Shown here piece after piece: positions 2,265 through 30,880 of a DNA stretch of 31,755 bases (positions are counted from its first letter, which is position 1; each line of letters begins with the position of its first letter). A model generated the notes under the pieces. It was given only the letters and a program-made list of their open reading frames with translations. It was not told the DNA's origin and did no database searches. Made by a program: the position numbers and the translations under genes. Source of the DNA: a virus. The stretch spans positions 1-31,755 of the IMG/VR virus record IMGVR_UViG_3300008448_000382; one strand, given 5' to 3'.

Positions 2265-2270
2265 GATAAT
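2265..2270 (+). promoter_or_regulatory. Late -10 element, leaderless type
   Basis: GATAAT ends exactly 6 nt before ATG 2277 (spacer AGAGTT). No -35 is visible 17 nt upstream. The predicted RNA start is the A of the start codon. Confidence 0.6.
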
Positions 2271-2276
2271 AGAGTT

Positions 2277-3134
2277 ATGGCCGACTTCCCGCAGGCGCAG
2301 AACCTCAACCCGCTATTAACCGGCGCTCTCCGTGACCCCGCGAAGATGCAGAAGGATCAGGTCATGGCTTGGTTGGCGGATAAGCAGAAGGAACAGGCGA
2401 TACAAGCCCACGGCGGTGGTGGTTTTGTACAAGGTCTCGCCCCGATTATCGCTGCACTGACGGCGACTAAGGCCCCGGCTCTCGGGATACTCGAATTTTT
2501 ATCTCAATTCGAGAATAATCGCGCTGAAAAAACTCGACGCCGGGATATCAAGGAAGAAGAAATCCCTGACCTCGGAATGGCCTTCCCTGTCTTCGGCGTA
2601 GGAAAAACAGGCCGGTTAGCCGCGGCTCATCGTCGTCTCCAGGGCAACCAAACCAAAGAACTCCCGATGTTCTCCGACACTGGCTTAATGGCCCCGGCGC
2701 GACAACGAGAGCTTGAAAAGCGAATGCGTGAGTGGATTCCGCAGACGTCGACAAAAGAACCCGAACATCTAACCGATTTACTCAACAAGTTCGTCGCTGA
2801 ACGCCCGGGTTGGGGTAAGGTGCCGATGGAAAAAGGTGGAATGACGGATAAGATGCATTCGAAACTCCGCCAGTCCTACTACCAAGCGTTGAAGGAAATG
2901 GGTTACGGCGGTATTAAATACCCGGAAGTCCGCAACTACAACCCCCGTGAAGCAACCGGCACAACCCGGCCCGTTGAAATTCTAGGAGGCCCGGTTCGGC
3001 CATGGGAGGAAATACTCCAGTTCGAGCAAAAAGGTAACGTCCCTTCGGGCTGGGAAGCCGCGTTCAAGGCTCTTCAAGAAATCGAAGCCGCTAAACCCCC
3101 GCGTCCGAAAACCAAAACTGCAGGAGGTCGTTAA
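2277..3134 (+). CDS. Unknown protein, 285 residues, sister of the next gene
   Basis: The protein begins MADFPQAQNLNPLLTG. It has a Gln/Lys-rich helical N-terminus, a hydrophobic segment around residues 48-75 (LAPIIAALTATKAPALGILEFL), and a central charged part. A late motif, MGYGGIKYPEVRNYNP (near 211-226), resembles C-terminal motifs of some phage-encoded ADP-ribosyltransferase-like proteins, but this is weak. It ends KTKTAGGR, a tail shared with the next protein (KTKTAGR). Both open the late block directly after the putative origin. A virion-internal protein injected with DNA would fit, but that is only inference. The -10 lies 6 nt before the ATG, with no Shine-Dalgarno. Confidence 0.6.
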   Translation: MADFPQAQNLNPLLTGALRDPAKMQKDQVMAWLADKQKEQAIQAHGGGGFVQGLAPIIAALTATKAPALGILEFLSQFENNRAEKTRRRDIKEEEIPDLGMAFPVFGVGKTGRLAAAHRRLQGNQTKELPMFSDTGLMAPARQRELEKRMREWIPQTSTKEPEHLTDLLNKFVAERPGWGKVPMEKGGMTDKMHSKLRQSYYQALKEMGYGGIKYPEVRNYNPREATGTTRPVEILGGPVRPWEEILQFEQKGNVPSGWEAAFKALQEIEAAKPPRPKTKTAGGR

Positions 3135-3135
3135 T

Positions 3136-4143: not shown

Positions 4144-4160
4144 TACAATAGTTCCAGGAG
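4141..4160 (+). promoter_or_regulatory. Late extended -10 with Shine-Dalgarno at predicted RNA 5' end
   Basis: TGA-TACAAT (4141-4149), where TGA is also the stop of the upstream gene. The predicted start of transcription, about 7 nt on, is the A of AGGAG (4156-4160); the ATG is 12 nt further at 4173. The word ACAATAGTTCCAGGAG recurs nearly unchanged at 5062 and 23664. Confidence 0.65.
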
Positions 4161-4172
4161 CCACTCTCACCA

Positions 4173-4613
4173 ATGCCTAACTCTTCCTACTCGATCTACG
4201 CGGCCAACAACGGCAGCGGTGTTTTCACTCCAACGGCCCGCCGTAACCCGACCGCCGCTTCCGGGGGTACGACCCTTTCCCTCCCCTCCGGTGAGTTCTT
4301 CAAAGGCACGACGGCGACGTCGACGAACCTCTTGTATCTCGCCATTGACGCCGCGAAACGCCGGATTTTGGATGACTACACGGCCACCGCCGCGGCTGCT
4401 CGCTCCTACTCCATCGACGTCACCAACGACGGCTCCGACAACTACTCCGTCGTAATCCGCTACAACCCCACGGCTCCTTCCGGCGGCACGACTCTCACCC
4501 TCCCTTCCGGCGAACTCTTCGCGGGCACGACCCAAACCACCACTTCCCTCCTCTACCTCGCCATCGACGCTTGCAAACGCCGCATCCTCGACGACCGCGC
4601 GGCGGGTAACTAA
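4173..4613 (+). CDS. Small virion-type protein with internal duplication
   Basis: The 146-residue protein consists of two tandem copies of one unit, about residues 6-72 and 78-141. Each copy contains NPTA.SGGTTL.LPSGE, then GTT and LLYLAIDA.KRRILDD; the two are roughly 70 percent identical by eye. The unit looks like a compact beta/alpha domain. A virion decoration or assembly role is inferred from its place among small beta-rich structural genes. No family recognised. It is a single-gene unit: a promoter with AGGAG before it and a strong terminator at 4644-4672 after it. Confidence 0.65.
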   Translation: MPNSSYSIYAANNGSGVFTPTARRNPTAASGGTTLSLPSGEFFKGTTATSTNLLYLAIDAAKRRILDDYTATAAAARSYSIDVTNDGSDNYSVVIRYNPTAPSGGTTLTLPSGELFAGTTQTTTSLLYLAIDACKRRILDDRAAGN

Positions 4614-4643
4614 AACACTCCCACCGTCCCGCTCCTCGAAGAG

Positions 4644-4672
4644 AACCCCGGTTACCGCCGGGGTTTTTCTTT
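4644..4672 (+). terminator. Intrinsic terminator
   Basis: AACCCCGG (4644-4651), 6-nt loop, CCGGGGTT (4658-4665), in a TTTTTCTTTT run. A classic rho-independent terminator closing the 146-residue gene. Confidence 0.85.
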
Positions 4673-4679
4673 TCCCTCC

Positions 4680-4688
4680 TGAGACAAT
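4680..4688 (+). promoter_or_regulatory. Late extended -10, leaderless type
   Basis: TGA-GACAAT (4680-4688) ends 6 nt before ATG 4695 (spacer AGAACC). It follows directly after the terminator, marking a new transcription unit. Confidence 0.65.
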
Positions 4689-4694
4689 AGAACC

Positions 4695-5051
4695 ATGGCG
4701 ACCACTGACACGACCCTCCGCATGGTGCGAAACTCCGACTACACCTTCTCCGCGACTCTCTACCGCGGCGGCGACGTCATCGACTTAACCGGAGCCTCCC
4801 TCACTTTCACCGCGAAATGGACGCCGCGCGACACCGACACCATCTTCGAACTCACCGAAACTGACGGTATCAATGTCACTAATCCGACAAACGGCGAAAT
4901 CACCGTCACCATCCCTTCCACCGCCACCACCACCCTCCCCTACGACGAAGTTCGCCTCGCCTACGACCTCTACGTCCTCACGTTAACCTCCGTAACCGGC
5001 TACCCCCTCCGCGGCACCCTCGTCGTCTCCCCGAACATAACTCGCCCGTAA
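4695..5051 (+). CDS. Small Ig-like virion protein (BppU N-terminal-like)
   Basis: The 118-residue protein has the pattern DYTFSATLYRGGDVIDLTG followed by alternating strands and VTNPTNGEITVTIPS. This resembles the Ig-like N-terminal domain of baseplate upper proteins and related small phage structural proteins (charged start, DLTGASLTFTAKW, then -GEITVTIP-). The role would be a virion accessory or adhesion-plate component; the exact function is not known. The start codon is 6 nt after a GACAAT hexamer with no Shine-Dalgarno, so it is probably leaderless. Confidence 0.6.
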   Translation: MATTDTTLRMVRNSDYTFSATLYRGGDVIDLTGASLTFTAKWTPRDTDTIFELTETDGINVTNPTNGEITVTIPSTATTTLPYDEVRLAYDLYVLTLTSVTGYPLRGTLVVSPNITRP

Positions 5052-5057: not shown

Positions 5058-5077
5058 TGCGAAAATAGATCCAGGAG
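5058..5077 (+). promoter_or_regulatory. Late extended -10 with Shine-Dalgarno at predicted RNA 5' end
   Basis: TGC-GAAAAT (5058-5066) followed by AGATCCAGGAG. The predicted RNA start falls at AGGAG (5073-5077), and ATG 5090 is 12 nt further, the same layout as at 4141-4173. Confidence 0.6.
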
Positions 5078-5089
5078 ACTTCTTTCAAC

Positions 5090-5374
5090 ATGCCTATTCT
5101 TGTCGGTTCGGGGATGCGCCAGATTGTTTACGCCGCGACGGTGAATCCCGCTAATATCTCGGCTAACACCACCGGGGAGACGAGCGTTACGATTACCGGC
5201 GCTGTTCCTGGTCAGGTTTTCATTGTCCAGCCGCCCGCAGACCTCGATTCCGGTATTATCTGCGCCTCGGTCGCCAACTGCTCGACTGCGGGAACTGTGA
5301 CGCTCCGGCTCGGAAATGTCACCGTCGGCGATATCAACGTCGCGTCTTCCACCTTCAACTTCATCGCTCTCTAA
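5090..5374 (+). CDS. Small beta-rich phage structural protein
   Basis: The 94-residue protein contains VNPANISANTTGETSVTITG, then VPGQVFIVQPPADLDSGIICASV and a final run of beta strands. This layout (VNPA-IxANTT-xxxVTITG-VxGDxVxV) is a recurring small phage protein family without assigned function, probably a virion surface or head-associated beta-sandwich. It opens a five-gene unit (5090 to 8000) whose later members each have good Shine-Dalgarno sites or overlaps. Confidence 0.6.
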   Translation: MPILVGSGMRQIVYAATVNPANISANTTGETSVTITGAVPGQVFIVQPPADLDSGIICASVANCSTAGTVTLRLGNVTVGDINVASSTFNFIAL

Positions 5375-6604: not shown

Positions 6605-6605
6605 A

Positions 6606-7703
6606 ATGATAAACCGAGAAAAGCTACTCCTCATACTCACTGTTTTTGTCGGCTTGTTCCTTGGCCGATCACTTGCAGCGCAGACGGCTGGAACGCCATC
6701 GCAGATCAAAGGTACCGGCACTCCGTCATCGGGGCTTTGTATCGCCGGGTCGGTCGGCCAGGAATACTTCCAAACTGACGCGACGGCTGGGCAGAATGTC
6801 TACAAATGCACATCTGCTGGTGTCTGGACTCAGGCCAGTGCGGCGACGACGGAGATCCAGAGCGGCGGAATCTCGTATTGTGCTTCGGCTACTACTAACG
6901 ACTCCTACGCCTGTAACTTCGCCCCCGCCTTCACGGCTTACGACGCGAACGGCACCTGCGTAACAGGCGAAGTTTGCACAGGCACAGTGATTCAGTTCTA
7001 CGCCGACGTCCAAAATACCGGAGCGGCGACGTTCGCCCCGAATGGGTTGGCAGCTAAAGCCATTCGCAAGGGCGGAAAAAACGCTGCTCTTACCACCGGA
7101 GACATCGAAGCCGGTCAGGTCGTCACCCTCGCCTATAACCGGGTAGCCGATGTTTGGCAGTACCAGAGCCAACTCTCGACCGTGGTCAACCCCGGCATCC
7201 CAACCGTGGAGTCTCAGACCGCCAGTTCTTCCGCATCCCTGAACTTCACCACTTGTATCACTTCGACGTACAACACCTACATGGTGGTCGTGAAGGGGAT
7301 GCACCCGTCGAATAACCTGGATACCCTATATATCAAACTGTCTTCGGACGGCGGGGCTACCTGGATCAGCGGCGCATCCTATGCGACAAACCTGAGACGG
7401 TGGAATGCTTTTGGGCAGGCATACGACGGTAGCTCCTCCACGGCGGCGTGGAACCTCAACACCCAGCAAAGTAATACATCCACGACCCAAGGCTACAGCG
7501 GGGTTTTCTACATCTTTAACCCGCTCTCTACTACCCAATCCAAGAGCATTGTTGGGCACGGCACAGGGTACACGACCGCCAGCGAAGGGTTCGACGTTGC
7601 GGGTTCGTATGCCTCGACCACCGCCATTAACGCCTTCCAGGTCATCGCCTCGACTGGTAACCTCCTGGACGGTACGGTTACTTGCCAGGGTGTGATTCAG
7701 TAG
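6606..7703 (+). CDS. Fibre-like exported protein with Cys module, 365 residues
   Basis: I use ATG 6606, directly after the previous stop, instead of TTG 6594. The N-terminus MINREKLLLILTVFVGLFLG with RSLAAQ is a signal peptide or anchor. It is followed by the module GTGTPSSGLCIAGSVGQEYF...NVYKCTSAGVWTQ (about residues 30-75), whose two Cys could form a disulfide. The next section has more Cys pairs (SYACNF, TCVTGEVCTG) and ends in a beta-rich domain with a closing Cys (TVTCQGVIQ). The module is duplicated in the next gene. Likely a host-recognition or cell-surface protein; the precise role is unknown. Confidence 0.6.
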   Translation: MINREKLLLILTVFVGLFLGRSLAAQTAGTPSQIKGTGTPSSGLCIAGSVGQEYFQTDATAGQNVYKCTSAGVWTQASAATTEIQSGGISYCASATTNDSYACNFAPAFTAYDANGTCVTGEVCTGTVIQFYADVQNTGAATFAPNGLAAKAIRKGGKNAALTTGDIEAGQVVTLAYNRVADVWQYQSQLSTVVNPGIPTVESQTASSSASLNFTTCITSTYNTYMVVVKGMHPSNNLDTLYIKLSSDGGATWISGASYATNLRRWNAFGQAYDGSSSTAAWNLNTQQSNTSTTQGYSGVFYIFNPLSTTQSKSIVGHGTGYTTASEGFDVAGSYASTTAINAFQVIASTGNLLDGTVTCQGVIQ

Positions 7704-8020: not shown

Positions 8021-8026
8021 GATAAT
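8021..8026 (+). promoter_or_regulatory. Late -10 element, leaderless type
   Basis: GATAAT ends exactly 6 nt before ATG 8033 (spacer AAAGTC). It decides the start of the 527-residue spike, for which an open frame extends further upstream to 7895. Confidence 0.6.
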
Positions 8027-8032
8027 AAAGTC

Positions 8033-9616
8033 ATGCCAGCCTACCCGACAACTGTAGCCACCGACGCGACTTTAATCGCCGCAGATAATCGCGCGTCGAC
8101 TACACTCCTGGGGACGATTTCCTCCGGGGCTACTACAATTGTCGTAACCTCCGGCGTTTTCTCTGCGTACTCCGTTGTCACTATCGAGAACGAACGGATT
8201 CTTCTCGGCTCAATCTCCGTCTCCGGCACCTACATCAACTGCACTCGTGGCTACGACGGTTCTGCCGCCGCGGCTCATACCAACGGGGTCGCTGTCAAAG
8301 CAAACGTCGTCGCGGCGCATCATAACGTCCTGGTCGACGAACTAATCGCCGTCGAAGGCGCACTCGGCGCGAATCTCCGATTTGTCCAGAAAGTCTTCAA
8401 CGCCGACGGCTTCACCTTCACCTTCACCGGGACGACCAACCTCGTCGGTGCCACACCCGCGACCGTCGTCATCGACCCGGGCCCGGCGGGCATCACCACT
8501 GCTTCGATCAACAAACATTACCTCTACATCACCGACGGGGCTTCCTCCGAAGCCGTTCTCCTCACCAACGTCACCGTCGGAGCCTCTACTACCTCCGTCA
8601 CCTTCACGCCCGCCAACTCCCACACCTCCGGCCAGTGGACCATCGGTTCGGCCTCCGGGGGTATTCAAGAGGCGATTAAATACGCGGAGGCTCAGGTTGG
8701 CGGCGGCGCGGTTCAGCTACCTCGCGGCTCTACGACTATTCGGCAAAAGATATTCCTCTCCGGCACCCCGGCGATTGAAGTCTATGGAAGCCGCCAGGGA
8801 TCGACTCTCGCTCTCGGCACCTCCAACACCTTCGACTGCGTAGCCGCGACACAATCCTACACGCTCCGTGACTTCTTCATCAGTTATACAAACGGGGCTT
8901 CCGGCATCGCGCCCGCGATCAACGCCGTTAATGCGTCAGCCGGGAATGTGATTATCGACAATGTTCAGATCAACCGCGCCTACATCGGTATCAACCTAAC
9001 CACGATCCTGCAACCGATTATTCGGAATTGTAAAATCTGGGAATGCGAGCGCGAGGGGATTTTAGCCACAAGCGCATCTGAAGGGTTTATTGTCAACAAC
9101 GTCTGCTACGACAACGATCAGTCGGGTGCTACGAAGGCCGGGATTAAGATTGACGGCGGGGGTAAGATCAGCGTCATCGGCAATGCGTGCTACAACTCCG
9201 GCGGTGTGACACAGGATTACGGGATTGAACTTACCGGGACACTGCCGTACCTCACCATGGTCGCGAATTCCTGTTTTGCGAACAATACGTCGAATTATGT
9301 AAGCACCGGCCCGGCGACATTCTGGACGATAGCGGCAAACGGCGGCGCGGATACTACACTGGGGGCAATAACCGCCGCGGCTACGGTAACGCTGCCAACG
9401 TCGATGGCGAAGTTAACTGTAATCTCCGGCACCACGACTATTGATACGATTAACGGATACTGGGGGACGGGGCATGAAGTTATCTTCGTTTGCCCGAATT
9501 CGCTAACCTTCTCCGCGGCGGGCAATATCGCCGTCGCCGTGACCACCACTTTCGCAAATCAAATCGTCCGCGGGATCTACAGCGCCACCGCGGGCAAATG
9601 GTATCTCTACGCCTGA
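8033..9616 (+). CDS. Tail-spike protein with beta-helix, 527 residues
   Basis: The N-terminal part contains TTIVVTSGVFSAYSVV and TRGYDGSAAAAHTNG (about 69-85), a motif also present in the tail hub at 25764. A connector follows, about residues 160-225, ending SASGGIQEAIKYAE. The rest is a right-handed beta-helix of short Asn/Ile/Gly-rich coils (VIIDNVQINRAYIGIN, RNCKIWECEREGILA), typical of pectate-lyase-like spikes that bind or cleave surface polysaccharide. A C-terminal beta domain ends GKWYLYA. Unlike its neighbours it has no signal peptide when started at 8033, where a -10 lies 6 nt upstream. I reject the 46-residue upstream extension. Confidence 0.75.
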   Translation: MPAYPTTVATDATLIAADNRASTTLLGTISSGATTIVVTSGVFSAYSVVTIENERILLGSISVSGTYINCTRGYDGSAAAAHTNGVAVKANVVAAHHNVLVDELIAVEGALGANLRFVQKVFNADGFTFTFTGTTNLVGATPATVVIDPGPAGITTASINKHYLYITDGASSEAVLLTNVTVGASTTSVTFTPANSHTSGQWTIGSASGGIQEAIKYAEAQVGGGAVQLPRGSTTIRQKIFLSGTPAIEVYGSRQGSTLALGTSNTFDCVAATQSYTLRDFFISYTNGASGIAPAINAVNASAGNVIIDNVQINRAYIGINLTTILQPIIRNCKIWECEREGILATSASEGFIVNNVCYDNDQSGATKAGIKIDGGGKISVIGNACYNSGGVTQDYGIELTGTLPYLTMVANSCFANNTSNYVSTGPATFWTIAANGGADTTLGAITAAATVTLPTSMAKLTVISGTTTIDTINGYWGTGHEVIFVCPNSLTFSAAGNIAVAVTTTFANQIVRGIYSATAGKWYLYA

Positions 9617-9780
9617 TGAGCTACTTCGACACATTCCTCTTCGACGAAGACCTGTTCGACGATCAGGGCGCTATCTCCGGGCCGGTGTACGCGGTTATTT
9701 CAGATCGACTCGACTTCCGCGCGGCTATTACCCCAGGCTCGGCGACCCCCGAAAGCGCGCCGGTTGCGGGCACCGAGTAG
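9616..9780 (+). CDS. Small acidic protein, 54 residues
   Basis: ATG 9616 overlaps the stop of the spike gene (TGATG), so translation is probably coupled. The product, MSYFDTFLFDEDLFDDQG..., is strongly acidic at first, with repeated FD/LFD motifs, then ends in a Pro/Ala/Glu-rich tail (ATPESAPVAGTE). No family recognised. Longer in-frame readings from 9490 overlap the spike out of phase and lack support. Its TAG stop (9778-9780) is the first half of the next gene's -10, TAGAAT. Confidence 0.5.
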   Translation: MSYFDTFLFDEDLFDDQGAISGPVYAVISDRLDFRAAITPGSATPESAPVAGTE

Positions 9781-9783
9781 AAT
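9778..9783 (+). promoter_or_regulatory. Late -10 element, leaderless type, overlapping a stop codon
   Basis: TAGAAT starts with the TAG stop of the upstream gene and ends 6 nt before GTG 9790 (spacer ACCTAT). The same 6-nt spacing with a GTG start supports the spacing rule. Confidence 0.6.
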
Positions 9784-9789
9784 ACCTAT

Positions 9790-10281
9790 GTGCCGACCCC
9801 ACCCGCGTTCGAAATCCGCTGTGATCCACGGTTAATCACGGAATTCCGCCACGCGGCTAAGAAGGCGTTTCCCAAGGAAATCTACGGAGTTTTTCTTGGC
9901 GTGTTTGATGAGCCGGATGTGGTGGAGGTTGTGGAGATGCTTCTTTGCCCGAAGGAGGAGACCGTTAGGTCGACGCAGTGGATTGTCATGCCGTCGGAGG
10001 CTTGGTTGGCGGAGGTAGAAAAAGCCGGGCGGGAGGACGATTTAGTCATTGTTGGAGACATCCATTCCCACTGTTCGACGAGAGAAAACGGGTTTTACTG
10101 CGAAACCGCTCCCTCCGAAGGCGACTGGGAGTCTGTCCCCCACTACCAACGGCTGTTTAAGGACAACTACACCTTCATGGCGATTATGGCTTTGAATAAG
10201 GGGGAGACGAAAATACGGACGAAAACCAACTTCTGGCCGCTTCTCCCGCCGGTTAAGGTAACCTGGAGTGAGCATGAGTAA
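9790..10281 (+). CDS. JAMM/MPN (JAB1) metalloprotease-like protein
   Basis: The 163-residue protein carries a JAMM signature: a Glu near the start (E30 in KEIYGVFLG), then GDIHSH (H92, H94), then S109 and D112 in SEGD. These are the usual zinc ligands and catalytic Glu. The H-to-S gap (14 residues) is longer than the usual 7 and includes two Cys (C95, C104). The family cleaves isopeptide or peptide bonds; in phages JAB domains occur in tail-assembly proteases. Here it stands alone, and its 3' end overlaps the terminase start by 8 nt. Possible roles are virion-protein maturation or removal of a ubiquitin-like tag made by host defence; neither is proven. Confidence 0.7.
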   Translation: MPTPPAFEIRCDPRLITEFRHAAKKAFPKEIYGVFLGVFDEPDVVEVVEMLLCPKEETVRSTQWIVMPSEAWLAEVEKAGREDDLVIVGDIHSHCSTRENGFYCETAPSEGDWESVPHYQRLFKDNYTFMAIMALNKGETKIRTKTNFWPLLPPVKVTWSEHE

Positions 10282-12067
10282 CGAACTGTCGATGGACGAG
10301 CGGATTAAGCGGATTCGGATCGCGCGGTGGAAGGCGCGGACGGACTTACGGTGGTTTGCGAACGAGATTTTGGGGTATAAGGACGTTTCTGAAGAGGTTC
10401 ACGGCCCGCTTTTATCCCGTTTGCAGAAATTCCCGAGCCCGGATACTACTAATTTCGTCCAGAACGACCGTTTTAACAATGGCCGGTGGGAGTACCGCCC
10501 CCTAATACCCATGATGGACCTCCCGGGGAAGCGGCGTTTGCTCATCCTCGACTCCCGCGGTTGTCTAAAAACGACCATAAACGCCATTTCCCACACAATC
10601 CAGTGGATCATCAACTACCCAGACATCGCAATCGCCGTCATCCAGGCTAACTTGGACAAAGCCGAGGACATTATCTCGGAAATCAAGAACCACTTTACGA
10701 AAAACCCCCGTTTCCGAGAACTTTTCCCCGAACACTGCCCGGATTTGAAGAAAGTCGAGTCGTTTGGTACGCAAGCGGAGTTCACGACTAAAGCCCGCGG
10801 CCCGGCGGTTACCCGAAAAGAGCCTACGGTACGCGGCGCGTCTATCGAAAAGGGCCTCGCGGGGTCGCACTTTGACTTGATGAAGTATTCCGACATCGTC
10901 GACGAGAATAATTCGAACAACGCGGAGATTTGTAAGACGATTTTCCGTAAATTCGTCCTTTCCCAGAACCTCTTGGTGTCCCCGCGCTTCTGGATCGACG
11001 TGGAAGGCACAAGATACGACGAAAAAGACACCTACGGCGAGATTATTCGAGGCCAGGAGATGTTGGCCGAGGAAAAACGCGACTGGAACATCTTCGTCCG
11101 CGGGATTTTCAAAAAAGACACCGGAGGGAGGCCACGGCAGTACACCTACGCGGAGGTTAAGCTCCCGGATCTCCTCGATGAGAACAAACTACCCATCTCC
11201 ATCTGGCCGGATCGCTTCCCATCGGATGGCATCCTATCCGAATACGCGATGGACCCGTATTTGGTCAGTTGCCAGAAGTTCAACTTCCCTAACCACGCCG
11301 CGGGTGGTCAAACCGTCTTCCCTATCGACGACAAATACCCGGCTTGGAAGTCGCGCGTTGACTTCGACCAGCGGGTTCTCGTCTCCCACTACGAAATCCG
11401 TGTAGATACCGCCCAGACCATTGGCGAACGCTCGAACCACTCCGTTATAACCGTCGGGGCCTGGGACGCCGCCGGTCGACTCTACATCGTCGACATACGT
11501 CGCGGGAAATGGCTCGCCGCGGAGTTAATCGCTCAGATCATAGCCGCGTACACCACCTACCAGAGAAAGTCGCGTAACGGCTTCGTGAGAGTGGCTATTG
11601 AGGAAACGGCTTACGTCACCGGACTAATGCTCGGCTTCAAACAATACTGCGACCAGCGGGGCATCCACATCCCCCTCGAAACGGTGAAGATCGACAACAC
11701 GAAGTCGAAGACCGAGAATATCGTTCGCACCCTCCAATACCCGTACATGACGAAGCAGATCATCTTCCTCGACGATCTGAAGGAAAAGGAGGCTTTACTA
11801 AGCGAACTCGGCGGAATGCCGAAGCCGCTGACCGACGACATCCTCGATACCCTGGCGGCTTTCTTTAAGGGAAAAGAGTGGCTTGGACGTTTAAACGTGC
11901 GCCAAGACCCCACCCACATCGACCAAGTGGTGCAAAACCGGCTCTCCCCTGCGGACTCCTATCGACAAAAACAATTCGCCCGGCTCCTCGGCTTAACCGG
12001 GGACTACGACTCCCCCTCCGACTACACCGGTATGCACCCGGACCTCGCCAAAACCGGAGGCCTGTGA
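10274..12067 (+). CDS. terL: Terminase large subunit
   Basis: The 597-residue protein is the DNA-packaging motor. An adenine-binding/N-terminal part is followed by a Walker A-like motif DSRGCLKTT (D93-T101, K99) and a Walker B region, FDLMKYSDIVDE (200-211, D210-E211). The C-terminal RNase H-like nuclease begins YEIRVDTAQT with D378 as the likely first metal ligand, and has further acidic residues in LTDDILDTLAAFF. Length is normal for TerL. I choose ATG 10274 over GTG 10268 because GGAG at 10265-10268 is 5 nt from the ATG. No small terminase is recognisable nearby. Confidence 0.9.
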   Translation: MSNELSMDERIKRIRIARWKARTDLRWFANEILGYKDVSEEVHGPLLSRLQKFPSPDTTNFVQNDRFNNGRWEYRPLIPMMDLPGKRRLLILDSRGCLKTTINAISHTIQWIINYPDIAIAVIQANLDKAEDIISEIKNHFTKNPRFRELFPEHCPDLKKVESFGTQAEFTTKARGPAVTRKEPTVRGASIEKGLAGSHFDLMKYSDIVDENNSNNAEICKTIFRKFVLSQNLLVSPRFWIDVEGTRYDEKDTYGEIIRGQEMLAEEKRDWNIFVRGIFKKDTGGRPRQYTYAEVKLPDLLDENKLPISIWPDRFPSDGILSEYAMDPYLVSCQKFNFPNHAAGGQTVFPIDDKYPAWKSRVDFDQRVLVSHYEIRVDTAQTIGERSNHSVITVGAWDAAGRLYIVDIRRGKWLAAELIAQIIAAYTTYQRKSRNGFVRVAIEETAYVTGLMLGFKQYCDQRGIHIPLETVKIDNTKSKTENIVRTLQYPYMTKQIIFLDDLKEKEALLSELGGMPKPLTDDILDTLAAFFKGKEWLGRLNVRQDPTHIDQVVQNRLSPADSYRQKQFARLLGLTGDYDSPSDYTGMHPDLAKTGGL

Positions 12068-12081
12068 TAATAGTATCGGAG
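12063..12081 (+). promoter_or_regulatory. Late extended -10 with Shine-Dalgarno at predicted RNA 5' end
   Basis: TGT-GATAAT (12063-12071) overlaps the terminase TGA stop (12065-12067). The expected RNA start is about 12078, the first base of GGAG, which is 5 nt from ATG 12087. Confidence 0.6.
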
Positions 12082-12086
12082 ACCCC

Positions 12087-12308
12087 ATGAACATCCGAAC
12101 GGCTGTCCTTACTATCGTATACACCGCGCTGTCGTCGGTTCTGAACGGCTTCGTTCTAAACGCCATTGTTCCCGAGGTCTTTGCCGACCCGAAGAAATTC
12201 TGGACCCTCATTGCCGTCGCCGCGGCTAAGGACGTGTACTTGCTGCTCAAAGACGTTGGGTTTCAGAAAGTTCTGGGTATCTACATCTCTCAGAACGAGG
12301 ACAAGTAA
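12087..12308 (+). CDS. Small probable membrane protein between terminase and portal
   Basis: The 73-residue protein has a hydrophobic segment at about 6-30 (AVLTIVYTALSSVLNGFVLN) and a second, weaker one at about 39-52 (WTLIAVAAAKDVYLLL), with a charged C-terminus (ISQNEDK). It has one or two membrane spans. A holin-like role is possible but its place is unusual: between terminase and portal and far from the endolysin. GGAG lies 5 nt upstream. Its stop overlaps the portal start (TAATG). Confidence 0.55.
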   Translation: MNIRTAVLTIVYTALSSVLNGFVLNAIVPEVFADPKKFWTLIAVAAAKDVYLLLKDVGFQKVLGIYISQNEDK

Positions 12309-14587: not shown

Positions 14588-14593
14588 TATGCT
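14585..14593 (+). promoter_or_regulatory. Late extended -10, leaderless type, using a stop codon
   Basis: TGA-TATGCT (14585-14593): TGA is the portal stop codon. The hexamer ends 6 nt before ATG 14600 (TGAGGC, which could also act as a weak Shine-Dalgarno). Confidence 0.6.
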
Positions 14594-14599
14594 TGAGGC

Positions 14600-14962
14600 A
14601 TGGAACAACGTGAAATAACAAACGACGAACAACGGGCGCTTCTCCACACCTCGGAGACGCCCGGTTTTCGCCTCTACTGCGATTTACTGCAGAGCGAAAT
14701 CGACAACACCATCGGTTTACTCGAATCCTGGGATCTAACCGAAGCCCAAGAACGCCGCTACCTCGCGTACATCCGCGCGTTTCGACGTACACTTTTCTTG
14801 TTTAAACACACGACTTTGTCGCTCCAACTCGCCCTCCGCCAAACCGTCGACCCCACCGCAACCTCCGCCCTCTTCACGCCCGGCGTCTCCGAATCCCTCG
14901 ACGTCGACTGGCCGCATCCGGAAGAGGCCCCGCTATTAGCCCCGCACGTAGGTGTAGAATAA
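14600..14962 (+). CDS. Helical hypothetical protein between portal and scaffold
   Basis: The 120-residue protein starts MEQREITNDEQRALLHTSET. It is helical through about residue 90 (IDNTIGLLESWDLTEAQERR, RAFRRTLFLFKHTTLSLQLA), with a Pro/Glu-rich C-terminus. No family recognised. Its place between portal and scaffold in a packaging/head module suggests a role in head assembly. It ends VE-stop, where GTAGAATAA contains the -10 of the scaffold gene. Confidence 0.6.
   Translation: MEQREITNDEQRALLHTSETPGFRLYCDLLQSEIDNTIGLLESWDLTEAQERRYLAYIRAFRRTLFLFKHTTLSLQLALRQTVDPTATSALFTPGVSESLDVDWPHPEEAPLLAPHVGVE
14955..14960 (+). promoter_or_regulatory. Late -10 element, leaderless type, overlapping a stop codon
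   Basis: TAGAAT (14955-14960), preceded by GGTG, ends 6 nt before ATG 14967 (AAACAC). It encodes the last Val-Glu and stop of the upstream gene. Confidence 0.65.
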
Positions 14963-14966
14963 ACAC

Positions 14967-15746
14967 ATGTCCCAACCAAATATGGAAGATTTTGACGCGC
15001 TAGTCGCCGAACTGATCGCCGGAGACGGTTCTCAAGGCGAAACCCCGAAGGATGACAGTTTTAAGCTCCACCTCGGCGGGAAGGATTATAAATTCGCTAC
15101 TCAAGAAGAGGCGGAGCGCGCGGTCGAAACGCACATGGCTCGGTTGGAGGAGCAGGCTCGAAACGCCAACGCCTCTGCCGCCGCGGCTTATCAACCTCCT
15201 CCGGCCCCCGCCGCCCCAGCGCTAAAAGAAGGCGAAGTCGACCCGCGGGTTAAGGATTTCGTGTCCGCCTTAGAAAAAGGCGATTTCAAAACCATGTCGA
15301 ACATCATGTTGAAACACGGTGTCTTCGACGGTAAGATCGACGATCCGGGTGCCGTTCTCACCGACTCCCTCCTCCGCACGGCGCAACTCGACCGCCAGAC
15401 CTCCGTCCAGCAATTCATCTCCGCCCACCCCGAACTCGCCACCGACAACGCCGCGGCCTCCGCCGTCGAACAGGCCCGGCAGTTCCTCAACCTCCCGGCC
15501 TCCCCGGACGGTTTCGAAGCGGCTCACGCATACGCCGAACGCCGGGGTATGATTCGTCCGTCCGGTAACCAAATGCAGAACTCCTACCCAAACCGCCCCT
15601 CCGCTCCTCCTTCTCTACCCTCTTCGCGAGGCTCCAACACCGGCTCGGGCCAGCCGCAAACCGACGAAGAATGGTCGCGGTTCTACGAGTCCCAGTCGGA
15701 CGAAAACCTCGACAAACTCATGAAAGCGGCTTACGCTAACCGCTAA
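14967..15746 (+). CDS. Scaffolding-like protein
   Basis: The 259-residue protein lies directly between portal and major capsid, the usual place of a scaffold. It has an acidic start (MEDFDALVAELIAGDG), a short beta motif (FKLHLGGKDYKF), an Ala/Pro-rich linker, a long helical centre (DPRVKDFVSALEKGDFKTM) and a flexible Ser/Pro/Gln-rich stretch. It closes with an acidic helical tail ending in basic residues (DENLDKLMKAAYANR). This architecture matches phage scaffolds, though sequence alone cannot prove it. It is predicted to be leaderless. Confidence 0.65.
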   Translation: MSQPNMEDFDALVAELIAGDGSQGETPKDDSFKLHLGGKDYKFATQEEAERAVETHMARLEEQARNANASAAAAYQPPPAPAAPALKEGEVDPRVKDFVSALEKGDFKTMSNIMLKHGVFDGKIDDPGAVLTDSLLRTAQLDRQTSVQQFISAHPELATDNAAASAVEQARQFLNLPASPDGFEAAHAYAERRGMIRPSGNQMQNSYPNRPSAPPSLPSSRGSNTGSGQPQTDEEWSRFYESQSDENLDKLMKAAYANR

Positions 15747-15800: not shown

Positions 15801-15809
15801 TGGTACAAT
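15801..15809 (+). promoter_or_regulatory. Late extended -10 of the major capsid gene
   Basis: TGG-TACAAT (15801-15809). The expected RNA start is near 15816, giving a leader of about 36 nt with AGGAG (15838-15842) 9 nt before ATG 15852. This is the only late unit with a normal-length leader, fitting the need for high expression. Confidence 0.65.
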
Positions 15810-15851
15810 AAAAACGCAAGGGCGTCGGCCCGCGCACAGGAGATTTTACAA

Positions 15852-16841
15852 ATGGCCTACGCGCCTTCAGGAAACGCTACTACCTCTCCGGGTCTTGCTC
15901 ATCTTCAAAACGTATTCATCAAGCGCAAGGCCCTTTCGCGGCTTCAGAAGAAGTTCCGCTTCCGTGACGCTTGCATGGAGGACAATATTCCGGCGCGCTC
16001 GGGCCGTACCGCTCAGTGGTATCGGTACTCGAACCTCGCCGCGAATACGACTCCGTCGACCGAAGGCTCGGTCGGAACGTCTCAGTCGTTGACGTCCAAG
16101 ATCGTCTCGGCTACGGTGTCGGAGTATAGCTCCTTCATCACGGTGTCCACCTTGCTGGACGAAACCGCCCCTGACCCTATTCTCCAGTCCGCTGGTGAGT
16201 TGCTCGGCTACCAAGGCGGTCTCTCCGTCGACACGATCACCCGTAATGTAATCGACGCCGAGTCCACCTCCACGAACCAGAACCCCATCGCGACGTACCT
16301 CAAGGTCGCCGATATCCGCGCAGCTGTCCACGGCCTCCAGGGTATTGACGTCGAGCCGTTCGAAGACGGTCAGTTCTTGGTGGTCACCTCGCCGTATAAC
16401 AGCTACGACCTCGCCAATGACCCGGCGGCTAACGGTCTGGCCGATATCTTCAAGTACACGAACCCGGACAAGGCCAATCTGGTTAACCGCCAGGATCGCG
16501 GCCAGTTCGCTCAGGTGGCTGGCTCGAAGATCATTGAGTCCACGAACGTCTACTCCTCGGGCTCCCCGGCGAGCTACCGGACGTATGTCTTCGGCAAAGG
16601 CGGCATCGCCTGCACCTCGCTCGAAGGCTCCGTGCCCTCCAAGGTCACCGACCCGACGAAGCAGGGCTTTAATGTGCGAGTCGTCCGCGGCGGAGTGCCC
16701 AGCATTCCCGATCCGGAAGGGATGATCGGCGGCGCTGTGAGCTACCGCTTCACCTATACGGCAGTCGTCATCGACGGCACGACCGGCGTGGGTGGAAGCT
16801 ACCGCTACCGCACAATCGACGCGCAGTCGACCATCGCCTAG
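15852..16841 (+). CDS. Major capsid protein, N4 gp56 family
   Basis: The 329-residue protein has the pattern of the N4-gp56 capsid family. A basic N-terminal arm (KRKALSRLQKKFRFRDACM) is followed by RSGRTAQWYRYSNLAA, LTSKIVSATVSEYSSFITVS, LLDETAPDPILQSAGELLGY, then DTITRNVIDAE. The C-terminal part includes the axial-domain-like RAAVHGLQGIDVEPF and SYRFTYTAVVIDGTTGVGGS. It adopts an HK97-type fold in known members and forms the shell. It is monocistronic, with AGGAG before it and a strong UUCG-loop terminator after it. Confidence 0.88.
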   Translation: MAYAPSGNATTSPGLAHLQNVFIKRKALSRLQKKFRFRDACMEDNIPARSGRTAQWYRYSNLAANTTPSTEGSVGTSQSLTSKIVSATVSEYSSFITVSTLLDETAPDPILQSAGELLGYQGGLSVDTITRNVIDAESTSTNQNPIATYLKVADIRAAVHGLQGIDVEPFEDGQFLVVTSPYNSYDLANDPAANGLADIFKYTNPDKANLVNRQDRGQFAQVAGSKIIESTNVYSSGSPASYRTYVFGKGGIACTSLEGSVPSKVTDPTKQGFNVRVVRGGVPSIPDPEGMIGGAVSYRFTYTAVVIDGTTGVGGSYRYRTIDAQSTIA

Positions 16842-16861
16842 TCCGAAAGCACTAAGGAATA

Positions 16862-17044: not shown

Positions 17045-17050
17045 TACAAT
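17045..17050 (+). promoter_or_regulatory. Late -10 element
   Basis: TACAAT (17045-17050) followed by AG, 9 nt before ATG 17060. The spacing is 3 nt longer than the usual 6, so the leader would be only a few nucleotides. Confidence 0.5.
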
Positions 17051-17059
17051 AGTAGCGTA

Positions 17060-17824
17060 ATGGCGTCACCTCAACTTCCAAGGTTCGCGAGATTCGATCC
17101 GTCCGTGTCTGTGACATGGGACGATGGCTCGGCTTTGACCGGTTTTTTGCTCGTCGGCTTAGTTCTCCCGACCGGTTACGCCCAAGGATATTACGCCGCG
17201 ACCTACCCGGATGTGGCGATTCCGACGTTCTTAAAAGTGCCGATTATCAACGGCTCTTTTCACACCGCTGAGTCCATCTGCTACAACGCCGATATCGAAC
17301 CGCCGAACTCGCGCTACGTCGCTTGGTACTACGACTCGACAGGTCAGCAGATCGCAGGCCCTACGGCTTTATTTAGCGTCTCCACCACCACCTGCACGCC
17401 GCCGTCCCTGACCCTCCCGACGCCCGCTATCGGCCTCATCCCGCCGGTTCCGAATTCCGGCCCCACGGTTACCTCCAACATGCCTATCTACTACAACGGC
17501 GGCTACTACGTCGTCGACTACGATTCGACCCTCACCCTCGACCTCGCCGACGCGCTTTCTCAAGAATGCGTACCGACAGGAGCCGTGACTTTGTCGACGC
17601 CGATCTACACAGGCGGCACCATCGTCCCGGGCATTATCCTCACGTATAAACACACCCAGGACGGTACAGGCGGGCGAACCCTAACCTTCGGAGCCATCTT
17701 CGACGGCATCACCGACCAAGACCCGGATCTAACCGCTAACACCTACACCCAGTACGTGTTCCAGTACACCACCTCCTCCCGTTGGCAGCTTCTCGGCACC
17801 CTGAAAGGACTCGTCAGTGCGTAA
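17060..17824 (+). CDS. Fibre/spike accessory protein, 254 residues
   Basis: The N-terminal domain runs from MASPQLPRFARFDPSVSVTW through YNADIEPPNSRYVAWYYDST to GPTALFSVS, followed by a Pro/Thr-rich linker (about 110-140). The C-terminal domain includes TYKHTQDGTGGRTLTFGAIF and ends RWQLLGTLKGLVSA. The QDGTGGRTLTFG motif is widespread in phage fibre and spike proteins. It probably attaches to the virion through one domain and displays the other. It overlaps the next spike gene by 8 nt, so the two are translated together. Confidence 0.65.
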   Translation: MASPQLPRFARFDPSVSVTWDDGSALTGFLLVGLVLPTGYAQGYYAATYPDVAIPTFLKVPIINGSFHTAESICYNADIEPPNSRYVAWYYDSTGQQIAGPTALFSVSTTTCTPPSLTLPTPAIGLIPPVPNSGPTVTSNMPIYYNGGYYVVDYDSTLTLDLADALSQECVPTGAVTLSTPIYTGGTIVPGIILTYKHTQDGTGGRTLTFGAIFDGITDQDPDLTANTYTQYVFQYTTSSRWQLLGTLKGLVSA

Positions 17825-20920: not shown

Positions 20921-21369
20921 CACCGAAGATGCTGACGCCTAACTTTTCGGTGGACGAATTCGCGTGTAAGCACTGCGGGGTATGTCGCGCGGAGATGTCG
21001 TTCGTCCGGATTATTCAAAAACTAAGAGACGAACTCGCACGGCCTTTGGAAATCAACTCCGGCTTCCGATGCGCGGCTCATCCGGTGGAGCGGTCGAAAC
21101 CCCCGGGCTCCTTCTCCGCGCACACCTATGGAATCGCCGCGGACATCCACTGTCCGTCGCTGTCAATCCAGGCCCTCTTCAACGCCGTCCTCCAACACCC
21201 GGAGCTAAAAGGCATCGGCGTAAACCCCTGGCAGAACTACATCCACGTCGACGCCCGCTCGAAACCAGCCCGCTGGGCTTATTCCCGTATGAACGCCACG
21301 GTCCCGTGGTCGGGGAAGTGGGACGATTTGGAAGCGGCTACTGGATTCGTTTTCAATAAGGTAGACTAG
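20917..21369 (+). CDS. Endolysin: M15 peptidase (Peptidase_M15_3-like)
   Basis: The 150-residue protein has the zinc peptidase pattern of the M15A family: INSGFRCAAHPVE, then SAHTYGIAADIHC (H69, D76) and YIHVDAR (H110). H69, D76 and H110 are the expected zinc ligands and D112 follows. An N-terminal FACKHCGVC stretch is common in this family. The enzyme cleaves the peptide cross-bridges or stem peptides of cell-wall peptidoglycan, releasing progeny. GTG 20917 overlaps the upstream TGA (GTGA). Length is normal for a single-domain phage lysin. The terminal GTA GAC TAG carries the next gene's -10. Confidence 0.85.
   Translation: MTPKMLTPNFSVDEFACKHCGVCRAEMSFVRIIQKLRDELARPLEINSGFRCAAHPVERSKPPGSFSAHTYGIAADIHCPSLSIQALFNAVLQHPELKGIGVNPWQNYIHVDARSKPARWAYSRMNATVPWSGKWDDLEAATGFVFNKVD
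21362..21367 (+). promoter_or_regulatory. Late -10 element, leaderless type, overlapping a stop codon
   Basis: TAGACT (21362-21367) ends 6 nt before ATG 21374 (AGGGGC). It overlaps the last codons (Val-Asp-stop) of the endolysin. Confidence 0.6.
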
Positions 21370-21373
21370 GGGC

Positions 21374-21700
21374 ATGGACCCACAACTCAAAGAATACATC
21401 ATCGTTTTTGCTCAAGGCTTCAGCGATCTTCGGCACGACCTGACTGATCTGTACCGCGCTCAAGGACTTTCTCAGAAACTGGCCGAACTATGCGCTGAAT
21501 CGCAACTCGCAGTTCTCGACAACATGTGGCGTAAAATCCTACGCCTTGTTGAGTTGGGAAAAATCGAAGAACCTGTCGCTACATTTTCCGCAGAACTGGA
21601 CGATTCCGTTCGTTCCGAAAAGCGTACTCCCGGGGAACTCGCGGCGATTTTCAAAGCCCGCTGCAAAGACTATGACAAAACGGAAGACAAGGTAGAATAG
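21374..21700 (+). CDS. Helical hypothetical protein, 108 residues
   Basis: The product starts MDPQLKEYIIVFAQGFSDL and is almost entirely helical and charged, with two Cys (C60 region and near C-terminus) and an end KDYDKTEDKVE. No family recognised. It has its own -10 6 nt before the ATG and is followed by another such promoter at 21693, so it is predicted to be a single-gene leaderless unit. Small helical genes at this place in podoviruses are often assembly factors; this is a guess. Confidence 0.55.
   Translation: MDPQLKEYIIVFAQGFSDLRHDLTDLYRAQGLSQKLAELCAESQLAVLDNMWRKILRLVELGKIEEPVATFSAELDDSVRSEKRTPGELAAIFKARCKDYDKTEDKVE
21693..21698 (+). promoter_or_regulatory. Late -10 element, leaderless type, overlapping a stop codon
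   Basis: GG-TAGAAT-AG: TAGAAT (21693-21698) ends 6 nt before ATG 21705 (AGGCGT). The same bases encode Val-Glu-stop of the upstream gene. Confidence 0.65.
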
Positions 21701-21704
21701 GCGT

Positions 21705-22145
21705 ATGTCGGACAAAACTCAAATCAACATCTCTGCGGCCCCTCCAGTTAAACCCCCGAATAACGGGTCTTACGACCCTGAGTTGGCGGAACTTTCGAAG
21801 CGGCGCGAACTACTCCAGATCAAGCAGTTGGAGCAGCAACTCGCGCTTCAGCAGGAGGCGCTGGACGTCCAGGCGACGAAGAAGGCTGAAGGGCAGGCGC
21901 TTCGCCTCTCCACCGTCAAGCAGTTGGAAATCGGTAAGGCGGGCCGGAAATACGCCCAGGACGCCTGTATGCACTTGAAGGAGAACGGGAAGACCGCCGT
22001 CGTCGGCCAGCGGGATTCGAAACGTGTTTACCACTGGCTGTGTCAGAACTGTCAGAAAGAGTTCACCGGTATCGACCCCACGACCGGCGGTCTCCCGATG
22101 CACCTTCGACCTGACCCCTCCACCGTCGGCGGTCCGGACTTCTAA
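21705..22145 (+). CDS. Coiled-coil and zinc-ribbon-like protein, 146 residues
   Basis: A Pro-rich start (PPVKPPNNGSYDPELAEL) is followed by a coiled coil (about 26-60, LLQIKQLEQQLALQQEALDV) and then C88-x-H90 and C113-x-x-C116 (HWLCQNCQKEF). The Cys/His spacing suggests a small zinc ribbon. The C-terminus is Pro/Gly-rich. It could bind nucleic acid or act in assembly; a small-terminase role is conceivable but unsupported. It opens a unit with the two connector-like genes that follow. Confidence 0.55.
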   Translation: MSDKTQINISAAPPVKPPNNGSYDPELAELSKRRELLQIKQLEQQLALQQEALDVQATKKAEGQALRLSTVKQLEIGKAGRKYAQDACMHLKENGKTAVVGQRDSKRVYHWLCQNCQKEFTGIDPTTGGLPMHLRPDPSTVGGPDF

Positions 22146-23559: not shown

Positions 23560-23780
23560 CCTGGGAGGAGTTCGTGGCGCAAAAACCGGCTCGCGGGTTC
23601 GCCTCCGTCGACACGTTTAAACGCCGCGTTCTCCCGGTTTACTACCGCGTTCCAACACCAGTTAAAATAGGTGCAGGAGCTAATACGAATGTTTGTTGTG
23701 AAACCGGAAGATGTAACGAAGCCTGCGTTGGAAACGCCGAAGCCGGAGCCTGTAAAGCCGAAGGAAAAAGCCGCGGCTAG
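23556..23780 (+). CDS. Small overlapping frame, 74 codons (uncertain)
   Basis: ATG 23556 overlaps the stop of the previous gene (ATGA). The first 45 residues look plausible (MTWEEFVAQKPARGF..., then FKRRVLPVYYRVPTPVK). The last 29, rich in Cys and Gly, overlap the start of the next gene in another frame and look like out-of-frame translation. The promoter and Shine-Dalgarno of the next gene lie inside this frame. It may be a true small gene with an overlapping tail, or its C-terminus may be non-functional. Confidence 0.4.
   Translation: MTWEEFVAQKPARGFASVDTFKRRVLPVYYRVPTPVKIGAGANTNVCCETGRCNEACVGNAEAGACKAEGKSRG
23663..23679 (+). promoter_or_regulatory. Late -10 with Shine-Dalgarno at predicted RNA 5' end
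   Basis: TAAAAT (23663-23668) followed by AGGTGCAGGAG. The expected RNA start coincides with AGGAG (23675-23679), 9 nt before ATG 23689. AAAATAGGTGCAGGAG closely matches 5062-5077. Confidence 0.65.
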
Positions 23781-28091: not shown

Positions 28092-28336
28092 TGCGCTTCG
28101 TCCTAGTCCTCTACCTCGCCCAGATAACCAGCGCGACCCAGGCCGACATCGTGCCCGACATCCTCGCCTTTGAAAAACACTGGACACCGTTTCTCTACAA
28201 ACTCGCGGGGTGTGAGCAAACGAAGACCTTCGAACGCCCCGTGTGCGCGCCGAGTAAGCGCGAACTCGACCGTGTTCTTTTTCTAAAAGCCCGAAAGGCC
28301 GCGGCTAAACTCTTCGATTTGAAGGAGCCGGGTTAA
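28091..28336 (+). CDS. Small exported protein, 81 residues
   Basis: GTG 28088 and ATG 28091 are both possible; ATG 28091 overlaps the previous stop by one base (TGATG) and I use it. The N-terminus MRFVLVLYLAQITSATQ is a signal peptide or membrane anchor. It is followed by a helical charged part with two Cys (AGCEQ and RPVCAPS) that could pair if exported, and a basic C-terminus (KARKAAAKLFDLKEPG). No family recognised. Because it sits among tail genes, it may be virion-associated or act at the envelope. Confidence 0.55.
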   Translation: MRFVLVLYLAQITSATQADIVPDILAFEKHWTPFLYKLAGCEQTKTFERPVCAPSKRELDRVLFLKARKAAAKLFDLKEPG

Positions 28337-29004
28337 TGGAATACAACCGCGAAGACCAATTCAGTCTCGACCGGCTGATTAACAAAACGAACGCCGCGGA
28401 GGGGACGGCGCTGCCGCCTCAACAGCGCGGCTTCTACCGCATCCCTTTCGTTACGTCTGTAAAAGCCGTACCGCTCGGAAACTCCCAGTACCTCGTATCC
28501 TGGCGAGAACCCGAAGGCTTCGCTGGGAAAATCGGCCAATACAACGTCTTCGCGAAGATCAACAACAGTTCCGACCTCCCGACGCAGTGCGGGTCTTCCG
28601 CTAAATCCCCCGCCTCCGTAACCGTCGACGCGGCTCCCGGGGATCGGATTACCTTTTCGATACAAACTCAGCTAACCTCGGGCTTCACCAACCCACCGGG
28701 GGTAGGTCCGGTCGCGACCGTAATTGCTCTTACCGGAGTCCAAAGTCTAAGCTCCGGCCCTTACACGATAAAAGCGGACAAAACCGTCTACCTCTGCGAC
28801 ACCACCGCCGCGAGCTTCACTATCTACCTCCCCGCTTCTCCAAAAACCGGTTTTATCGCACATGTGAAAAAACTCGTCGCGGCTAACACCCTCACTGTCG
28901 ACGGCAACGGGCATGATATCGACGGCGCAGCCTCCCTCGCCATCACAACGCAATACGTCTCCTACTCGCTAATCTACAACGGATCGGAGTGGTGTATCAT
29001 TTAA
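28336..29004 (+). CDS. Fibre-associated protein with FnIII-like domain
   Basis: ATG 28336 overlaps the previous stop; AAGGAG (28322-28327) is 8 nt upstream. A helical start ([20 protein letters not shown]) precedes an FnIII/Ig-like domain (about 38-118: [20 protein letters not shown] and following strands). A C-terminal beta domain has TYTIKAD-like strands and ends [16 protein letters not shown], a signature found at the ends of phage fibre or spike subunits. It probably attaches to or forms part of a side fibre with the next gene. Confidence 0.6.
28995..29000 (+). promoter_or_regulatory. Late -10 element, leaderless type
   Basis: TATCAT (28995-29000) ends 5 nt before ATG 29006. It lies within the last codons of the upstream gene. 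Confidence 0.45.
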
Positions 29005-29005
29005 T

Positions 29006-30880
29006 ATGAGCTACGAAACCCCTATCGGAACAAGTGGCGGCGGCGGATTAGCAGACCCTGGAGCTAACGGTATTGTTGTCCGCACAGCACTCGACACGAC
29101 GACTGCAAGAACAATTGTCGCCGGGTCTACCGCAGTCACGATCTCTAACGGAAGCGGTACGGCGGGCAACCCGTCAATTGACGTCGATGAAGCTCAATTC
29201 TCTGGAATCCCACAATCAGCGGTTACTAATTTAACCACGGATCTTGGAAATAAGCAACCCCTCGACGCAACTCTCACAGCACTCGCCGCCTACAACACCA
29301 ACGGACTTCTGACACAGACCTCGTCGGATACTTTTACTGGGCGAACCTTGACGGCGGGGTCTTCGAAGATTGACATATCTAACGGAGACGGTGTTTCCGG
29401 TAATCCCACAATCGACGCGAATTCAGCTAATATTCTCGCCGGGGGTAGTACGACTTCGCTCCCAGAAGGGACTAACCTCTACTTCACCGATGAGCGCGCA
29501 CAGGACGCAGTGGGTGGTATTGTCACAAACTCCACCACGGCATCTCTGAGTTACTCCGACGGGACCCCGTCACTAACCGCCGCGGTTATCACGCAGCTTT
29601 CTGTAACTTCCGATGCGTCGGGGGTTAAGTTATCCGGCGACAGCGCATCTCCGGGCAACAGTAAATACTACGGAACCGATAGCGGCGGGACAAAGGGATT
29701 TCACTCACTCCCCACGGCGGGTTCCGGAACGGTTACTTCGGTGTCAGTCACAACCGCAAACGGCGTCTCCGGCACCGTGGCAACGGATACAACTACCCCG
29801 GCGATTTCACTTACTCTCGGCGCAATCACCCCGTCCAGTGTGGCGGCGGTCGGGACCGTGACTGGTTCAAATCTAAGCGGCACTAACACGGGAGATCAGA
29901 CTTCAGTATCCGGTAACGCCGGGACTGCTACAGCCTTAGCGACTCCAAGGGCTATCTACGGAAATAACTTTGACGGAAGCGCCGCGCTAACTCAGGTAAT
30001 CGCCTCCACCTACGGAGGAACCGGAAACGGATTCACCAAAGTCTCCGGCCCCACGACGGCAGAAAAAACATTCACACTTCCGGACGCATCGGCCACAATT
30101 CTCACGACCAACGCCTTAATCACCCCGACACAAGGCGGAACGGGAGCAAACCTATCCGCAACGGGAGGCGCAAGTCAGGTTCTTCGACAGTCTTCCGCCG
30201 GGGCGAACATCACAGTAAGTCAACTCGCCGCATCTGATCTCTCCAACGGCACGACCGGAACTACGACAGTAGTGCTATCTGCATCCCCGACTCTCACCGG
30301 AACCCCGATAGCCCCCACGGCAGCAACCGGGACGAATACGACACAGATCGCGACTACCGCTTTTGTAACAGCCGCGGTACCCAATTCCTCGTACCGTACA
30401 ATCCTTACAACCTCGGCTTCTCATATCGCTGGTCGTACCGCCAACAAATACGCCCTTTGTTACGGAAACCCCGCCGCAGTCACAGGTGTCGGTACCTTGT
30501 ATGCGTGGGGCGTTATCCAACTTGTGGCAGCGGATTATCCTTCGGTTAATGGGTTTGCTCCTAAATTGAGAATTCGCGCTCAATTATTCACCAATGACGT
30601 TGCTCCGACAGGAAATTACACGTTTGGCCTATACCCAATCACACGACCGGCTACCTCGGGCGGCGCGGGCTTATGTATCTATACAATCGGAACCGTCATA
30701 GCTGGCTCAGACGGCGCGACCTTCACAACCCCCGCTGCCGATCTCCTCGGCTCTGCCGTTGGGTCGGATTTCACCTTCCCCGCAGATGGCCCTTATATAA
30801 TCGGAGTTGTGACAACCGCAACAGTTGCCGCTAACGGACTCGTTCACATGAACGCGCACCTTCAAATCCGAAACGCCTAA
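29006..30880 (+). CDS. Tail fibre protein, 624 residues
   Basis: A Gly-rich beginning ([15 protein letters not shown]) is followed by repeated beta segments with the typical fibre words [57 protein letters not shown] and [15 protein letters not shown]. The shaft ends at [19 protein letters not shown] distinct C-terminal globular domain of about 170 residues (from [15 protein letters not shown]) presumably contacts the host surface. The start is 5 nt after a TATCAT hexamer. It ends 46 nt before the last gene. Confidence 0.8.

Follow-up and report, generated by a model that had tools for sequence, protein, structure and literature searches.

The window analysed here is the whole 31,755-nt virus record IMGVR_UViG_3300008448_000382, which is the late half of a tailed soil phage. 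It carries the terminase, portal, major capsid and M15 endolysin genes (Table 1) together with genes encoding beta-helix and tail-fibre-like proteins. The leftmost 2.2 kb belongs to the margin of the early half, the remainder of which lies outside the record. Gene order is common to the window and six relatives, namely G001 (32 kb; over the longest aligned block, ~82% DNA identity to the window), G002 (62.7 kb; 63% identity between its terminase and that of the window), and G003, G004, G006 and G007 (64–68 kb). The longer relatives have their late genes on a single strand, opposite to that of most early genes. Gene starts of the relatives were called mechanically, and their sites were divided into early and late by strand; a division by coordinate misplaces late-strand sites, such as those at 57980 and 59533 of G002, among the early ones.

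Several further features were observed in the window and its relatives. At 1667–1682, in the early–late boundary region, lies a perfect palindrome, TGTTCCACGTGGAACA (0 expected in shuffles), which we take to be a match to the chromosomal parS (ParB-binding) consensus and which is present in one other fetched locus (L048). Two TCCACA repeats resembling DnaA boxes (tatccacagcttttccacag) are found at 2077–2112 beside a poorly coding stretch, a possible replication origin. The adjacent genes 6606–7703 and 7722–8000 have a similar N-terminal region, and the second resembles a shortened duplicate. Early regions of the relatives encode proteins matching Gad1 (Gabija anti-defence) and a Tad2-like domain in G002 (L061, L062), as well as RNA ligase and polynucleotide kinase matches in G003 (L070–L072). 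Just past the capsid region of G001, a 222-aa ORF at ~13804 on the minus strand, antisense to the late genes, is preceded by TTGACT-17-TATAGT-6-ATG and is probably an inserted gene.

Table 1. Genes, predicted promoters and terminators in the window
Feature	Position	Strand	Description
Early-type leaderless promoter	129..165	−	TTGACA-17-GATACT-5-ATG; gene runs off left edge
Early-type leaderless promoter	778..814	−	TTGACA-17-TAACCT-5-ATG
Early-type leaderless promoter	850..886	+	TTGACA-17-TATCCT-5-ATG
Early-type leaderless promoter	1385..1421	+	TTGACT-17-TATTCT-5-ATG
Late leaderless promoter	2265..2279	+	GATAAT, 6-nt gap, ATG 2277 (first late gene)
Late leadered promoter	4144..4175	+	TGA+TACAAT, AGGAG, ATG 4173, gap 23
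Intrinsic terminator	4641..4668	+	Directly upstream of 4683 promoter
Late leaderless promoter	4683..4697	+	TGA+GACAAT, 6-nt gap, ATG 4695
Late leadered promoter	5061..5092	+	TGC+GAAAAT, AGGAG, ATG 5090, gap 23
Late leaderless promoter	8021..8035	+	GATAAT, 6-nt gap, ATG 8033 (beta-helix protein)
Late leaderless promoter	9778..9792	+	TAGAAT, 6-nt gap, GTG 9790
Terminase	10268–12067		
Late leadered promoter	12066..12089	+	TGT+GATAAT, GGAG, ATG 12087, gap 15
Portal gene	12308–14587		
Late leaderless promoter	14588..14602	+	TGA (portal stop)+TATGCT, 6-nt gap, ATG 14600
Late leaderless promoter	14955..14969	+	TAGAAT, 6-nt gap, ATG 14967
Late leadered promoter	15804..15854	+	TGG+TACAAT, AGGAG, ATG 15852 (major capsid gene)
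Major capsid gene	15852–16841		
Terminator	16861–16884	late	Upstream of 17045 promoter
Terminator	17007–17030	late	Upstream of 17045 promoter
Late near-leaderless promoter	17045..17062	+	TACAAT, 9-nt gap, ATG 17060
M15 endolysin	20917–21369		
Late leaderless promoter	21362..21376	+	TAGACT, 6-nt gap, ATG 21374
Late leaderless promoter	21693..21707	+	TAGAAT, 6-nt gap, ATG 21705
Late leadered promoter	23663..23691	+	TAAAAT, AGGAG, ATG 23689 (likely start), gap 20
Weak candidate	28995..29008	+	TATCAT, 5-nt gap, ATG 29006
Late leadered promoter	30901..30929	+	TAGAAT, GAGGA, ATG 30927, gap 20

By reading the sequence directly at −12 to −7, we found at eight late genes a −10-like hexamer separated from the start codon by exactly 6 nt, as the first-pass annotation had proposed. 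A ninth, weaker candidate lies at gene 29006, for the start of which no homologue was found in the relatives compared. The hexamers had been described as TANAAT-like with TGn before several of them. All nine are indeed −10-like, of which only three are literally TANAAT, while G is the first base of three and two have -GCT or -ACT at their end; TGn, the known signature of an extended −10 promoter, precedes only two of the eight leaderless hexamers (genes 4695 and 14600). Gene 9790, a JAB-domain gene immediately 5′ of the terminase, has TAAAAT-6-ATG at its equivalents in L004, L006 and G002, and the same TAAAAT-6-ATG precedes the G003 homologue of gene 2277. Between the endolysin and gene 21705 lies a small gene, 21374–21700, with its own leaderless promoter. 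A tblastn search found no homologue of it in G001, where the homologue of gene 21705 comes right after the endolysin and a single copy of the promoter is present, as if gene 21374 and its promoter had arrived together as one cassette.

To evaluate whether such hexamers are specific to gene starts, we compared the 34 gene starts of the window with 487 internal ATG/GTG codons. TANNNT was found at −12 of five starts and three internal codons (Fisher P=4e-5), [TG]ANAAT at six and one (P=3e-7), and hexamers with at most two mismatches to TATAAT at nine and ten (P=4e-7). The enrichment peaked at −12 relative to the start codons, and the observed counts were not reached in any of 2000 rounds of dinucleotide shuffling applied to the upstream regions (P<0.0005). 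The hexamers are also conserved: 101 of 102 hexamer bases are identical in G001 and L003, whereas the flanks are 89% identical, and the promoter at 8021 is kept in both even though its upstream flank is not. More widely, the hexamer is kept at orthologous genes of more distant (~60%) relatives despite diverged surrounding DNA.

The gap of exactly 6 nt holds for the leaderless sites and thus covers only about half of the late promoters, because [T/G]ANAATA, the late hexamer, is found before Shine-Dalgarno leaders too, at gaps of ~12–25 nt. By sequence, the late promoters of the window comprise eight leaderless, one near-leaderless and six leadered ones, of which the last seven had been overlooked in the first-pass annotation, and at the gene equivalent to 12087, L004, L063 and L006 have TAGAAT or TACAAT plus a Shine-Dalgarno site. 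Across 27 related contigs with 432 late genes (some contigs being mutually close), the spacing between TANAAT and the start codon had a peak at 6 nt (15 cases), no cases at 7, 10 and 11 nt, and a broad second group at 12–25 nt, which is the pattern expected of promoters yielding leaderless or leadered mRNAs. TGn was found before 15 of 68 leadered late hexamers against a background of ~5% (P=8e-7), and before 2 of 22 leaderless ones. Some promoters follow terminators: the terminator directly upstream of the 4683 promoter and the two upstream of the 17045 promoter are the three GC-richest on the late strand, and at site 59533 of G002 the arrangement seen at 4641/4683 recurs as ccggggcttttt followed by TACAAT-6-GTG. 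Since terminator-like matches overall were not in excess over shuffles, these terminators lend support by position only.

The late sites had been said to lack any TTGACA-like element, in contrast with an early class. No match of five or more of the six bases was indeed found at the nine sites, while matches of four of six are present at gene 2277 (TTTAAA, 17 nt upstream) and gene 29006 (TCTACA, at 16 nt). Across the window and relatives, late-strand leaderless sites had a mean TTGACA match of 2.42/6, compared with 2.34 in controls (P=0.5), whereas leaderless sites on the opposite strand, only 15 in number, had 3.60/6, compared with 2.65 (P=0.01). At the early edge of the window, TTGAC(A/T)-N17-TANNNT-N5-ATG occurs three times, with 0.01 occurrences expected; the early timing of these left-edge promoters would follow from their position and strand. 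Thus, a −10-only, presumably late class with a leaderless subset stands against a −35-bearing early-edge class, but the view that leaderless messages mark the late genes is not supported, because early promoters of the window share the leaderless arrangement, with a gap of 5 nt, and roughly half of the late ones are leadered.

We consider it likely that the hexamers are −10 elements of host promoters of the sigma-A (housekeeping) type, which need no −35 element and in part are extended −10 promoters. The late consensus would be [T/G]ANAATA, in many cases immediately preceded by G or TG. A hexamer ending 6 nt before the codon would place the transcription start on the first base of the codon and yield a leaderless mRNA, on which an intact 70S ribosome could initiate, while a hexamer ~12–25 nt upstream would give an mRNA with a short Shine-Dalgarno leader. 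Many such minimal promoters would be spread along the compact late operon, several of them sharing bases with the stop codon of the gene before or lying just behind an intrinsic terminator. The genes at the early edge would be served by −35-bearing promoters that are leaderless too, and both classes are probably read by the host RNA polymerase. Plain host RNA polymerase explains this promoter anatomy, and the pattern, which is genuine and conserved, is accounted for well by principles already known.

A temporal switch from −35-dependent to −35-independent promoters had also been suggested, brought about by a phage factor or a modified host sigma factor. A phage factor acting on the host polymerase could displace sigma region 4, in the manner of gp39 of P23-45 and AsiA of T4, or could itself be a phage sigma factor comparable to gp55 of T4. 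The difference of the two promoter classes in the −35 element is in line with such a factor, and G002 encodes in its early region (L062, 5426–5890) a protein of 154–170 aa with sigma region 4 only, which matched Pfam Sigma70_r4 in two scans (E=3.9e-13 and 5.2e-15) and has its best solved match at residues 80–138, that is, region 4. Both gp39 and AsiA act on this region (PMC7403470). Nevertheless, this protein, for which the AlphaFold model is of low confidence (pLDDT 56), was found in G002 alone among the records of the viral collection, and none above the cut-off was found in G003–G007, even though they belong to the family and carry some of the −10-only sites. Likewise, no sigma region 2 was detected in G000–G008 and G010–G012, the distant G009 alone having one; when the early proteins of G002 and G003 were scanned against Pfam and PHROG, no further transcription factor was identified, and among the early proteins shared by G002–G007 none was shown to be one. 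A search for T7-type RNA polymerase found none in the relatives closest to the window, which is weak evidence because the search matched no control genome either. Phage transcription factors could lie outside the window, since its early half is missing. Overall, we regard a switch factor as rather unlikely. Slightly less probable still is that this uncultivated soil phage family, with hosts outside the Thermus group, independently evolved a genome-wide shift between early promoters that carry a −35 element and late ones that are −10-only, through a phage factor disabling sigma region 4, such as a free-standing region-4 protein of the kind encoded by G002.

Two further readings dispense with a promoter, and both appear very improbable. 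The hexamers might be a by-product of tight gene packing, in which upstream TAG, TAA or TGA stops and AT-rich junctions yield TANAATA. An upstream stop does lie inside or overlap the hexamer at 9778 (where TAG is the stop codon of the upstream ORF), 14955 (where the last T is the first base of the stop TAA), 21362 and 21693, and a TGA stop abuts it at 4144 and 14588, but the same [T/G]ANAATA is found with no stop overlap at 2265, 4683, 8021, 15804 and 17045. Moreover, dinucleotide shuffles of the same upstream regions fail to reproduce the counts, and packing does not predict the spacing peak at 6 nt with absence at 7, 10 and 11 nt, so that this reading is largely refuted already. The element might instead be a translation signal, an unusual ribosome-binding site, as its constant distance from the start codon at the leaderless sites could imply, but it also occurs 12–25 nt upstream, before ordinary Shine-Dalgarno sites, and downstream of terminators, its TGn enrichment is a promoter feature, and the equivalent motif of Deinococcus binds RpoD and cannot be replaced by a ribosome-binding site (PMC12340547).

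Homology points to a host that is probably a member of Acidobacteriota, an assignment that is suggestive only because distant homologues alone support it. The terminase relatives with a known host, from the Tunturiibacter phage Tunturi_3 and a Candidatus Sulfotelmatobacter genome, are both of Acidobacteriota at 25–43% identity, and a third distant terminase match lies in another Acidobacteriota genome. A nucleotide similarity search of the phage collection gave no match to the window, and no convincing spacer-like or prophage match was found in the host search of ~400 genomes of one class. On the host side, one Acidobacteriota genome had eight sites at −12 compared with 2.8 expected (P=0.009), and the other four of the five samples had no significant excess at −12; a scan of TANNNT-to-ATG spacing in host DNA that was independent of gene starts was too noisy and revealed no visible peak.

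The promoter pattern resembles those of known Thermus phages and the leaderless genes of several bacterial groups. In work of Sevostyanova and colleagues from 2007, early promoters of the Thermus phage phiYS40 are said to have −35 and −10 elements, and its middle and late promoters a single −10-like element. The window has a comparable early −35/−10 class and late −10-only class, here predicted from sequence, and differs from phiYS40 in phage family, probably in host phylum, and in having leaderless early promoters and a large share of leadered late ones. The late promoters of T4, TATAAATA, which are served by gp55, gp33 and gp45, are also −10-only. They share with those described here the A after the hexamer, but T4 has the phage sigma gp55, whereas sigma region 2 was not found in the closer relatives of the window; to our knowledge, T4 late messages are not generally leaderless. 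Most middle and late transcripts of phiYS40 are leaderless (PMC3594737). In the Thermus phage P23-45, middle and late promoters are of the extended −10 type and gp39 moves sigma region 4 (PMC7403470). Its late promoters are −35-independent like those of the window family, in which TGn is enriched before part of the late hexamers, although most of these lack it.

Among bacteria, TANNNT leaderless genes were reported in all three Acidobacteria investigated, amounting to 9.7–19.4% of genes (PMC3160421). The −10-only TANNNT promoters of Deinococcus are functional and bind RpoD, and in D. radiodurans the −10 element alone is sufficient while a −35 element added at 17 bp raises output (PMC12340547). 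The phage sites are like the leaderless genes of Deinococcota, Actinobacteria and Acidobacteria in having TANNNT ~12 nt before the start, usually without a −35 element (PMC3160421, PMC12340547), and differ from them in being concentrated in late operons and in their tighter consensus, [T/G]ANAATA.

Because the hexamer fixes the start, the pattern would provide a practical rule for start-codon annotation in such phages. If RNA mapping agrees, transcriptional control in the style of phiYS40 would be a recurrent strategy and no peculiarity of Thermus, and would extend to phages probably infecting a common soil phylum.
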